28,265 nucleotides of DNA from a virus: the IMG/VR virus record IMGVR_UViG_3300031857_001049, positions 1 to 28,265 of that record; one strand, written 5' to 3'. The notes under the pieces were generated by a model, which searched no databases, was not told where the DNA came from, and saw nothing but the letters and a program-made list of their open reading frames with translations. A program made the position numbers and the translations under genes. Positions within the stretch are counted from its first letter, which is position 1; each line of letters begins with the position of its first letter. Shown piece after piece: positions 16,569 through 22,423 of the stretch.

Positions 16569-16796
16569 TTATAGACAATCTTCATTAGGGCTGTTAGTTA
16601 TCCCGCGATCTATTTTTAAAATACTCATGTCCATGTCAGGGCGAAACCCTTGATTGTGGGCATAGTGGTATAAATCCAACACGTTTTCAAACCCTCTACA
16701 TAAATTGCCATTTCCCGCTGAAAGCAAGATCATCCGTTCTGGGGCTGACAATGTCCTTTGGAAATATCGGGTATCAGGTTTTGAGGGTCTGCCCAT
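16569..16796 (-). CDS. Small unknown protein, possible DNA-binding regulator
   Basis: A protein of 75 residues. It begins MGRPSKPDTRYFQRTLSAPE, with a GRP basic arm, and continues RMILLSAGNGNLCRGFENVL as two predicted helices, then DLYHYAHNQGF. The pattern '..pe...ll..GnGN...G...vl.ly' suggests a compact DNA-binding fold like those of small phage regulators, but I cannot assign a family. It is isolated between the two non-coding control stretches, which is where regulators usually lie. The Shine-Dalgarno is weak (GGTGA). Confidence 0.65.
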   Translation of the reverse strand: MGRPSKPDTRYFQRTLSAPERMILLSAGNGNLCRGFENVLDLYHYAHNQGFRPDMDMSILKIDRGITNSPNEDCL

Positions 16797-16942
16797 TGTT
16801 TTTTCACCAATTAAATGAATTTAAATAATTGTATACCTATGTTCTACGGGTTTCTACTAGTTTTGTAAAAAGGCTCAGGAAGGCCATTTTTAGCCCGTTA
16901 GAGAGCCTCAAACCTCTGTCCATACTTACCCATCAAAAATAG

Positions 16943-17023
16943 TTATCCACACCACAAGTTATAGATGTCCACAATTCCAACTCTTATATAAGACTGAAAC
17001 CTGTGAATAACTGGTACTCCACA
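16943..17023. other. DnaA-box cluster
   Basis: TTATCCACA (16943-16951) and TGTGAATAA (17002-17010, reverse of TTATTCACA) are exact matches to the bacterial DnaA box TTATNCACA in opposite orientations. ATGTCCACA (16965-16973) and TACTCCACA (17015-17023) each match with two mismatches. The first two box starts are 22 bp apart, two helical turns. Confidence 0.6.
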
Positions 17024-17068
17024 GGGTATGCATTAGGGTTTTTACTTAAGGGTTTAAAGTTGGTAAAA

Positions 17069-17085
17069 CTAGGGTTTGTACCTAG
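17069..17085. repeat. CTAGG-N7-CCTAG inverted repeat
   Basis: CTAGGGTTTGTACCTAG has perfect 5-bp arms. It belongs to the TAGGGTTTA(Y)CCTA element family and lies about 75 bp before the first plus-strand gene, a fitting place for an operator. Confidence 0.45.
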
Positions 17086-17123
17086 AGTTTTTCTTTTTTT
17101 GTTTGGTAATATATCTTTACTGA

Positions 17124-17138
17124 CCTAGCAGATCTAGG
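17124..17138. repeat. CCTAG-N5-CTAGG inverted repeat
   Basis: CCTAGCAGATCTAGG has perfect 5-bp arms, in the reverse arm order to the other palindromes. It ends 22 nt before the ATG of the first plus-strand gene, so it may be an operator or a leader hairpin. Confidence 0.4.
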
Positions 17139-17160
17139 GACTTTAAAAGGCGTTAATAAA

Positions 17161-17415
17161 ATGGCTTATAACTTCAACATCAAATTGCACCCTTGGGGAA
17201 ACAGTCCAGAATTCGGCACTGTTGTGGTAGACGAAACCGCTATGTATGGCGGATGGGATTACAAAGACGGAAGCGAAGGCGGAGGTCTGTGGTTTGAGAA
17301 AACCTCAAAAGGTAAGTTAAATCTTACAGATTTTGATGGGTCTTATGCTTTACCCAAAAAAGTTATTGAGGCTCTCCGCTTGGCGGGTTTCTCAGTAGAT
17401 GCTGATTTTGAATAA
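17161..17415 (+). CDS. Unknown early protein, first gene of plus-strand cassette
   Basis: A protein of 84 residues. It starts AYNFNIKLHPWGNSPEFGTV, has a Gly/Trp/Tyr-rich centre (GGWDYKDGSEGGGLWFEK) and a C-terminal helix (PKKVIEALRLAGFSVDADFE). I do not recognise it. It is the first gene rightward of the candidate origin, so it is probably expressed early. The Shine-Dalgarno AAAAGGCG is about 8 nt upstream of the ATG. Confidence 0.78.
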   Translation: MAYNFNIKLHPWGNSPEFGTVVVDETAMYGGWDYKDGSEGGGLWFEKTSKGKLNLTDFDGSYALPKKVIEALRLAGFSVDADFE

Positions 17416-17425
17416 GGGGCAAACC

Positions 17426-17641
17426 ATGAAATATACAAAAGCTGTCGATATCTGGGCACTGTCTCAAGATCAGCGCAAACAACTCCAAGTCGGTCAATGG
17501 GTCTTAGCGGGTGGCTCTAAGGGTCAATGGCTTGGACAAAAAGCCTCAGGCACTGATGTAGCCGCATGGCATCATTCAGGGATTAAGGGTTGGAAGGCCA
17601 AAGTCTCTACCCTTCGGGCTTATGCTAAGAATTGGGGTTAA
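17426..17641 (+). CDS. Unknown small protein
   Basis: A protein of 71 residues starting at the ATG at 17426 (MKYTKAVDIWALSQDQRKQL), behind an AAGGGGC Shine-Dalgarno. A longer reading from 17399 has no ribosome site and would overlap the previous gene. The body QVGQWVLAGGSKGQWLGQKA suggests a small SH3-like beta domain, followed by a basic KGWKAKVSTLRAYAKNWG tail. Function unknown. Confidence 0.75.
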   Translation: MKYTKAVDIWALSQDQRKQLQVGQWVLAGGSKGQWLGQKASGTDVAAWHHSGIKGWKAKVSTLRAYAKNWG

Positions 17642-20431: not shown

Positions 20432-20525
20432 CAGTTAACTCCAAGGCTTGATTGATTAGACGTACGGGATATGGTACGCCTTCCTTAACTCTGTCTAACA
20501 GTCTCATTGCTTCAAAGTAGTTCAT
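20412..20525 (-). CDS. 37-residue conserved phage peptide
   Basis: A short gene, MNYFEAMRLLDRVKEGVPYP, then VRLINQALELTGDLEQT. It overlaps the Mom-like gene stop by ATGA. The pattern 'mnyfeAm.lLd.vreG..yp...in.AL.ltGD' resembles small phage proteins of unknown function. Its short length is natural for this type. It overlaps the following GTG-start gene in another frame. Confidence 0.68.
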   Translation of the reverse strand: MNYFEAMRLLDRVKEGVPYPVRLINQALELTGDLEQT

Positions 20526-21178
20526 ACAAATAAAAGTTGTTGGGTTTTTACAGTTGTTCCAGAGTCGTATCTCTGTGAGTCACCTTTTGGATAAGGCATA
20601 ACTTCGTATTTCAGCTTAGATCGCATGACTTTCTTGTCAGTCTTTGACCCGTGAAATAAGATGTAACGATGCTTCCTAGATCGTTCGACATAGTAAAAAT
20701 CATCACCATGAAGTTCTTTTATCTCTGCCAAAGTTAGGCCATCGCCAATGGTTTTAGCGTGTTTATGCTCTTGTCCTTTGATTGTCCAATCAATTCTGTT
20801 TGCTGATAAACCTGTGTAAAGGAAGTTGGTGGCTTGATAAACGTAACCCACATGACCTTTGCTTGTGTCGGCAAACGAAACCACAATCATTGGTTTTGGC
20901 AATAACTTGATTGAGTTCGCAACCAAAAATGATGCTTCGTTTTTATGGTTGTCCAACAAACAGACTCGGTTTAGCTCTAAAACTTTATCTGAGTACTCTT
21001 TCCCACAGATTCCCATGCAAAGTGGTGGTGAAGCGGGAATCCCATAAGTCACTACGCCAACCAGAATGTCATCTTTGTAAAGCCCAAACGCAAACATTAT
21101 TTGTGGCATACGCTTGGCATAGTGTTTTTCAAGTAACCACGGCTCAACTTCAAAGTTGTTAATCGGAAGAACTTTCAT
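20522..21178 (-). CDS. Mom-like DNA adenine modification enzyme
   Basis: A protein of 218 residues, close to Mu Mom (about 231). Key parts are WLLEKHYAKRMPQIMFAFGL, GVVTYGIPASPPLC, VLELNRVCL, NEASFLVANSIKLLPKP, VVSFADTSKGHVGYVYQATN, and HRYILFHGSK. This pattern is the Mom family, a GNAT-related fold that hypermodifies adenine in phage Mu and protects DNA from restriction. All long conserved blocks are present and the frame is intact. It probably protects this phage's DNA from host nucleases. The start (ATGA overlap with the DUF1376 gene) couples it to replication. Confidence 0.85.
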   Translation of the reverse strand: MKVLPINNFEVEPWLLEKHYAKRMPQIMFAFGLYKDDILVGVVTYGIPASPPLCMGICGKEYSDKVLELNRVCLLDNHKNEASFLVANSIKLLPKPMIVVSFADTSKGHVGYVYQATNFLYTGLSANRIDWTIKGQEHKHAKTIGDGLTLAEIKELHGDDFYYVERSRKHRYILFHGSKTDKKVMRSKLKYEVMPYPKGDSQRYDSGTTVKTQQLLFV

Positions 21179-21948
21179 GCTCTTTTCCTCAACTCAGCCA
21201 TCTTTGCCAACACTTCTAGCGGAATCGGAACTGCTTTTTTTCTGTCAGCTTCAATCTTCAGTAAAGCAGGTTCAGGCTCATTTGATGGTGGAACTGTGAC
21301 CCTTCCAATGTCAGCATGGTTTGGTTTGATAACCCAATCTGCCTTAAATGCTTGCCAACCACGAACAACACATTCCTCCAAGGCTTTCTCTAAAGTCCAA
21401 TTGGCCTTGTTTGCTTCAGTAGTTATGGCATCAATGGCTCTTTGTGTTATCGGTGCTTTCTTGGCTTTCCTCAAAGATTTGAATTCTTGCCAAACAGAAT
21501 CAGAAACACCTTCAGGTGTTGCAACGACAGTTGCTTTCTCTTTATTTGGTTTATGGTTAATGGTTATTGGTTCTTGGTTAGGGTTATTTTGGCTTTCATC
21601 TGGCAACCCAGAAATAACCGACTGGGTTTTCTTTGGCCTACCACCTAGCTTCCCATTGTTCTTATTTTTCTCTGCTTGCTCTTGATAATCTTTAATTTCA
21701 ACTTCAATGCGTTTGTGCTTATATCCTGTTTTTCCTAAAACAAAGAAATCTGACAATACATTTTGAAGGAATTTAACTTCATCAGAACCCAAACGTAACC
21801 GCCTAATAACCACTTGGGTTTCTTCTGGAATTGGTTGTTCATCAAGGTAATACCAATCAATCAACTGGCGATAAATGCCATGTTCAATTGTTGACAGATG
21901 GCCTGTATCTTTCCGATAGTCGGCAATGTTGAACTTGTAATAGTGCAT
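21175..21948 (-). CDS. DUF1376 replication-type protein
   Basis: From the ATG at 21948 this is 257 residues. MHYYKFNIADYRKDTGHLST, then EHGIYRQLIDWYYLDEQPIP and LRLGSDEVKFLQNVLSDFFV match DUF1376 (YdaU-type), a winged-helix-like domain of phage replication-initiation proteins. A lysine-rich linker with GKLGGRPKKTQ (AT-hook-like) and a second, C-terminal region (VWQEFKSLRKAKKAPITQRA) follow. A GGAAAA site precedes this ATG and family members start with such M.YY. An upstream ATG at 22023 would add 25 atypical residues. It may recruit host replication proteins. Confidence 0.85.
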   Translation of the reverse strand: MHYYKFNIADYRKDTGHLSTIEHGIYRQLIDWYYLDEQPIPEETQVVIRRLRLGSDEVKFLQNVLSDFFVLGKTGYKHKRIEVEIKDYQEQAEKNKNNGKLGGRPKKTQSVISGLPDESQNNPNQEPITINHKPNKEKATVVATPEGVSDSVWQEFKSLRKAKKAPITQRAIDAITTEANKANWTLEKALEECVVRGWQAFKADWVIKPNHADIGRVTVPPSNEPEPALLKIEADRKKAVPIPLEVLAKMAELRKRA

Positions 21949-22057
21949 AAATTTTCCGCTTTTTAAGACCCCTTTGAAAGAAACTGCGGCAGGAGAAGGG
22001 TTAACTCTTTTCGGTACGCTCATGACTTCGTACCTAGCCGTGTTTCAAAACATTGTA

Positions 22058-22423
22058 TCAAATAAATTGATTGTTGGTAATTTCGTTTTCTGGCTTTGGT
22101 CTGCCAAGCAATCTTTTAGCTTGTGCGTTCATCACCGCATACTCTGATTTTGTAAATATACCCTTTGCATTCCTGATGTCAAACGGGTTTAGCAAACATC
22201 TAGGCTCTTCTTTTGGCTTGCTATCAATCATGTGATCAGCAAGGGTGTATTTGAGTATCCAAGAACGACCCATCTTGATCTTTTCAGCCGTAAGCTCTTT
22301 CTTGCGAATCATTTTCTTGCAAGCAGCAACAATGGAAGCCCTTGGGATGCCTGTCATGTTTTCCATGTCATAGGATGTCAACGATCCATCTTGCAGACAT
22401 TTAATGATGGACTCTTGGGTCAT
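22058..22423 (-). CDS. Winged-helix DNA-binding protein
   Basis: A protein of 121 residues. Residues about 16-50 (TSYDMENMTGIPRASIVAAC then KKMIRKKELTAEKI) form an HTH with a basic recognition helix and a beta wing, followed by WILKYTL. The C-terminus has AVMNAQAKRLLGRPKPENEI. It is a likely transcription or replication regulator acting beside the DUF1376 gene. The ATG at 22423 overlaps the stop of the 59-residue gene (ATGA). Confidence 0.78.
   Translation of the reverse strand: MTQESIIKCLQDGSLTSYDMENMTGIPRASIVAACKKMIRKKELTAEKIKMGRSWILKYTLADHMIDSKPKEEPRCLLNPFDIRNAKGIFTKSEYAVMNAQAKRLLGRPKPENEITNNQFI

Follow-up and report, generated by a model that had tools for sequence, protein, structure and literature searches.

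The locus analysed here raises the question of what a group of DnaA boxes does in the DNA of a freshwater phage. The phage is known from the IMG/VR record IMGVR_UViG_3300031857_001049, and the window, i.e., the whole stretch of DNA that was analysed, comprises 28,265 nucleotides (positions 1 to 28,265). Two exact DnaA boxes are located on opposite strands, box 1 (TTATCCACA) at 16943–16951 (+) and box 3 (TTATTCACA) at 17002–17010 (−). Both are situated in a gap of 364 bp (16797–17160) flanked by an ORF on the minus strand (16569–16796) and an ORF on the plus strand (17161–17415), and the box region is therefore intergenic and divergent. An earlier note had described this arrangement correctly and had proposed a host-dependent replication origin. 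Across the whole 28-kb window, three strict TTATNCACA boxes are found, compared with a mean of 1.5 when the window is modelled as a first-order Markov chain, and two strict boxes within 60 bp occur in 3 of 1000 Markov-simulated windows, so that the closeness of the exact pair is rarer than chance. Boxes with one mismatch are not enriched (63 observed, 79.7 expected), and weak boxes are thus uninformative by themselves. Two such weaker boxes had been counted in the cluster. The first, box 2 at 16965–16973 (+), is degenerate in the window (ATGTCCACA) and holds its place by homology, being situated where most relatives have a conserved box, either TTATCCACA or TTGTCCACA; the second, TACTCCACA at 17015–17023 (+), is unconserved in relatives and probably arose by chance.

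Between boxes 1 and 2 on one side and box 3, which faces them, on the other lies the AT-rich palindromic CTTATATAAG (16983–16992), a candidate unwinding site. The AT-rich run at 17085–17120, to which the earlier note had pointed, does exist, but it lies outside the element in the early-operon leader (17081–17153, +), which is also found in relatives lacking the element. That run is therefore not the unwinding region of the element, and CTTATATAAG is the better candidate. No iterons were found in the window element. A hairpin or RNA structure was rejected as the nature of the element, since folding of the window region is no better than that of shuffled sequences (z −0.43, 0.92, and 0.35).

The element is conserved far beyond the window. 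In a distant blastn comparison, non-coding DNA of Limnohabitans phage DC31 matches window positions 16923–17012 with 78% identity, and Curvibacter phage P26059A also matches. Searched against viral contigs, a pattern that combined CTTATATAAG with the right-hand box gave 84 matching stretches, and a looser pattern of one box plus CTTATATAAG gave at least 120 viral matches. In total, 132 loci were taken from both patterns and other routes; 130 could be oriented, and 117 distinct 100-bp cores were obtained, with two loci left out of the core set because CTTATATAAG was absent or close to the contig end. The carriers thus comprise at least 117 distinct phage sequences, including the isolates DC31 and P26059A; their genomes otherwise differ, and the core is non-coding in them. 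Of the 91 phage records from one search, most match over only about 22 bp with an E-value of about 5, and these were disregarded. An alignment of 85 sequences together with the 117 cores delimits the conserved core, consisting of box 1, box 2, CTTATATAAG, and box 3, at about 16935–17012 (+) of the window.

Boxes 1 and 2 are conserved in the 85-sequence alignment although neither was part of the pattern selecting on CTTATATAAG and the right-hand box. The conservation of box 3 is partly imposed by that pattern, which fixed all but its N base. This base, at which DnaA tolerates any nucleotide and which the pattern left open, varies freely over the 117 cores (C 42, G 37, A 21, and T 17). In the core survey, box 2 was located by its CACA, and only its non-CACA bases are therefore informative; eight of the 117 cores without such a CACA were excluded from the counts for boxes 1 and 2. 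The start-to-start distance from box 1 to box 2 is 22 bp in 100 of 109 cores, that from box 2 to the centre is 8–9 bp in 103 of 109, and that from the centre to box 3 is 8–10 bp in 114 of 117. The order is box 1, box 2, CTTATATAAG, and the reversed box 3, with every box directed toward the centre, and many carriers have extra boxes to the right of box 3. Averaged over the aligned elements, stability is lowest in the 15-bp stretch at the CTTATATAAG centre, which forms a local minimum in 83% of 112. Twelve carrier genomes contain 73 strict boxes in total, of which 46 are no more than 150 bp from CTTATATAAG; each carrier has 2 to 6 strict boxes close to the centre, whereas the window has two strict boxes and one degenerate box.

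Two features of oriC-type origins are present, a cluster of DnaA boxes in the window and in other carriers, and an easily melted AT-rich stretch at which the boxes point. We consider the element to be a portable, oriC-like cassette at which host DnaA binds and opens the phage DNA, a reading to which we assign a probability of roughly 0.5. The fixed spacing, the inward-pointing boxes, the free N base, the unstable centre, and the non-coding core in differing phages argue for it; the presence of only two strict boxes in the window version argues against an origin. Judged from the sequence, binding itself is the firmest part, and host DnaA very probably recognises the element. Host DnaA would bind the outer and middle boxes, all pointing inward at the AT-rich CTTATATAAG; the resulting DnaA assembly would open the centre, and the opened centre may then serve as an entry point for a helicase and as the start of replication. 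The helicase entering would be that of the host in window-like phages and the phage's own where the carrier encodes one.

A comparable order exists at the junction of the DUE and R1 in E. coli oriC (NC_000913), where the AT-rich CTCTTATTAG is followed a dozen bases on by the inward-facing strong box CCTGTGGATAAC, although this gap is somewhat longer than the gap between centre and box in the phages. Unlike E. coli oriC, the phage core spans only about 78 bp, its facing boxes flank a single palindromic centre, and no row of 13-mers is seen. E. coli DnaA is reported to prefer boxes 2–3 bp apart (PMC11317965), and the window core contains no boxes at that spacing, a further point against an origin.

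Such an element could have been copied from the host origin; this candidate was rejected. The element pattern has no match in bacterial genome contigs covering 84,980 species with one genome per species, nor in 299 genomes of the Comamonadaceae, the family of Limnohabitans; both searches used the exact pattern, which a diverged version would escape. The element is thus not copied from a host oriC and, as far as these searches go, is not a prophage feature either. In addition, nhmmer gave no match to the element in the host loci examined, and plasmids gave no meaningful match. In 14 Limnohabitans genomes, the rpmH–dnaA and dnaA–dnaN regions hold some boxes and no CTTATATAAG, the host oriC itself not having been located; box pairs occur at other places in six of these genomes and are unlike the element.

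Among the closest relatives, the element is either present or absent as a unit. Of the 80 closest terminase relatives, some of which are too short to reach the site, two carry the element as scored by nhmmer (L002 and L031). The remaining 78 have zero blastn coverage of about 16865–17069, while some of them cover both sides, which defines an insert of about 205 bp whose limits, taken from this coverage, are good to about 12 bp only. In the relatives lacking the element, the terminase side runs directly into the early leader at the same place (56 loci with the neighbouring gene). Even relatives with a terminase 94–97% identical and a homologue of the DUF1376 type lack a DnaA box at this site, and in some of them the entire available stretch is free of such boxes. 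Since these close box-less relatives share the DUF1376-type replication, this type of phage can replicate without DnaA boxes, which makes the element an optional cassette.

A second terminase lineage presents a more varied picture. Among its 46 loci (of 80) with at least 1.9 kb upstream, six carry the element at over 40 bits, or seven if L285 with 15.7 bits is included. Another cluster of three or more boxes is found in six of the 46, iteron-like repeats in seven (in none of 230 shuffled regions), and neither boxes nor repeats in 27, the last figure also counting against an origin at this place. L266 and L270 have terminases 98–100% identical to that of the element carrier L107, yet other sequence occupies about that place: GGCAAATATTGCCG repeats in L270, and TCTTATATAAGA repeats without DnaA boxes in L266. 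Upstream of the terminase in L282, L285, and L286, a second, different DnaA-box array consists of four boxes in one orientation, followed in L282 by TGCACTATAATGGTGA-like repeats.

The earlier note had pointed out that the window encodes a DUF1376 replication-type protein and no polymerase, primase, or helicase, and had suggested that the phage may load the host replisome through DnaA. The protein is confirmed: the DUF1376, or primosomal O-like, replication protein is encoded at 21175–22023 (−; PF07120, E 2.6e-23; phrog_6451 and phrog_678), and the annotated proteins of the window include neither PolA nor a DnaB-type helicase, which are likewise absent from all seven long relatives lacking the element. 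A Mom-like DNA modification protein (20522–21178; PF25680, phrog_1384) adjoins the DUF1376 gene. Carriage, however, is not linked to a missing replisome: among 32 carrier records searched, PolA is found in 20, a DnaB-type helicase in 25, and at least one of them in 27. These counts are lower bounds, since several records are fragments and PF00476 missed the annotated polymerases of P26059A, whose annotation lists DNA polymerases and a primase/helicase. The element cannot be a general necessity, because close relatives replicate without it and many carriers bring a replisome of their own. The proposal of a host-dependent origin is thus partly supported: the cluster is conserved across many phages, is built like a DnaA-responsive origin, and is a larger observation than the note had seen, but the argument for host dependence fails in the form given.

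A DnaA sink, in which multiplying phage DNA titrates DnaA, halts new rounds of host replication, and saves nucleotides for the phage, would also explain why phages with a full replisome carry the element and why close relatives do without it. DnaA titration is known from sites of the datA type, which are clusters of DnaA boxes outside oriC; unlike these, the phage element is located on phage DNA and has fixed spacing around an unstable centre. Such spacing and inward-pointing boxes are unexpected for a plain sink, and the mere 2 to 6 strict boxes that each genome has around the element would titrate little DnaA before many copies exist. We regard a sink as distinctly unlikely.

Other types of origin were compared with the locus. 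In a lambda O-type origin, a phage initiator recruits the host replisome, and the window resembles lambda in having an O-like DUF1376 protein. Unlike lambda, no iterons are clustered in or near the DUF1376 gene; between 20400 and 22760, the repeats found were limited to 12-mers in two copies, 128 and 374 bp apart, a search that diverged repeats could escape, and the DnaA boxes are situated in the element, 4 kb away. On this search, the lambda type was rejected. Plasmid and P1-type origins, in which DnaA boxes are combined with iterons, are short portable replicators using host DnaA. In comparison, no Rep initiator was identified beside the phage element and its core has no iterons, while some related loci have iteron-like repeats at this place; an iteron-type plasmid origin was rejected for the window, whose element is free of iterons and whose neighbours match no Rep family. 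The single-subunit RNA polymerase of T7 (PF00940) is absent from all 39 records searched, with T7 itself as a positive control, which makes a T7-style, transcription-primed origin unlikely in those records, and this candidate was set aside.

The genomic position of the element bears on two further alternatives. In podophage-type carriers, so called because they share portal and head–tail adaptor matches with the window, the element mostly occupies intergenic DNA that separates the early arm from the terminase arm, with the terminase genes about 1 kb away. Host DnaA bound there may accordingly repress or activate early and late promoters that diverge from the site, so that phage transcription would follow the replication state of the host; DnaA is known as a transcription factor (PMC8203912). 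Such a regulatory site is nevertheless unlikely, if still worth serious consideration. With respect to the gene arms, the element points one way in the window type and the other way in the PolA/helicase type, and both annotated neighbours run in one direction in DC31 and P26059A. Carriers also differ widely in how far the element is from the nearest gene, and a plain operator needs no AT-rich centre. The proximity of the terminase genes also fits a packaging (pac/cos) site that happens to contain DnaA-like words, but about 12 kb separate the element from the terminase gene in P26059A, and we hold such a site to be hardly probable at all. The cumulative GC skew reaches its minimum no farther than 1 kb from the element in only three of 12 genomes, a measure confounded by gene direction; in the window, the minimum is at 22330.

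A small early protein of 71 aa, similar to phrog_21585 and encoded at 17426–17638 (+) in the window, is often close to the element in other carriers. It is present at 40 of 85 element loci, the window included, versus none of 78 loci lacking the element, a co-occurrence suggestive of a partner of the element. The suggestion is weakened by phages that have the protein without a visible cluster: the protein occurs in 23 phage records, including phages of Pseudomonas, Salmonella, and Nitrincola, and three inspected stretches with its gene contain no DnaA-box cluster. The boxes could on this basis be an operator for a phage protein recognising TTATNCACA-like DNA, such as an early regulator that belongs with the element, and the other repeats near the same place in other phages would agree with this. 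The free fifth base and the exact match to the DnaA consensus suit DnaA better, and an operator of this kind appears quite improbable.

Returning to the portable, DnaA-opened cassette, we tentatively propose, at somewhat less than even odds, a wider account in which virulent freshwater phages of Comamonadaceae trade a phage-only, DnaA-dependent origin module of about 80–200 bp. It would permit an immediate start through the host initiator even where the phage later has its own replisome, while in related phages other repeat modules, or no module at all, would occupy roughly this position. Chromosomes and plasmids are known to have DnaA-box origins. A search of open-licence papers, judged partly by the top-ranked matches, gave no shared phage DnaA cassette and only a software prediction for a single phage. 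This is the Pseudomonas phage vB_PseuGesM_254, for which DnaA boxes were proposed in a predicted origin, as here, and the available part of the report describes no cassette shared across groups (PMC11512268). The available portion of the main text on DC31 does not mention DnaA (PMC12195039). If the cassette reading is correct, the element would be a transferable phage replicator dependent on the host's own initiator, and infection would be tied to the DnaA level and growth state of the host. It would also offer a small, testable model of DnaA opening, with one centre, boxes on two sides, many natural variants, and relatives with and without the element.

Several minor features accompany the element in particular carriers. 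In the element-carrying phage P26059A (KY981271), the gene at 60783–61100 has the annotation integration host factor; IHF assists DnaA at E. coli oriC. The right flank of many carriers, e.g., L001 and L325, contains TGGCAT-N5-TTGC words just past box 3, which are absent from the window version and which resemble a sigma-54 promoter. On the other side, a CAGGAAGGCCATTTNTAGCC-like flank is common to window positions 16872–16900 and to three loci of the PolA/helicase lineage (L107, L269, and L412), and an AGGCC-rich word similar to this flank is found in a Nitrincola phage.
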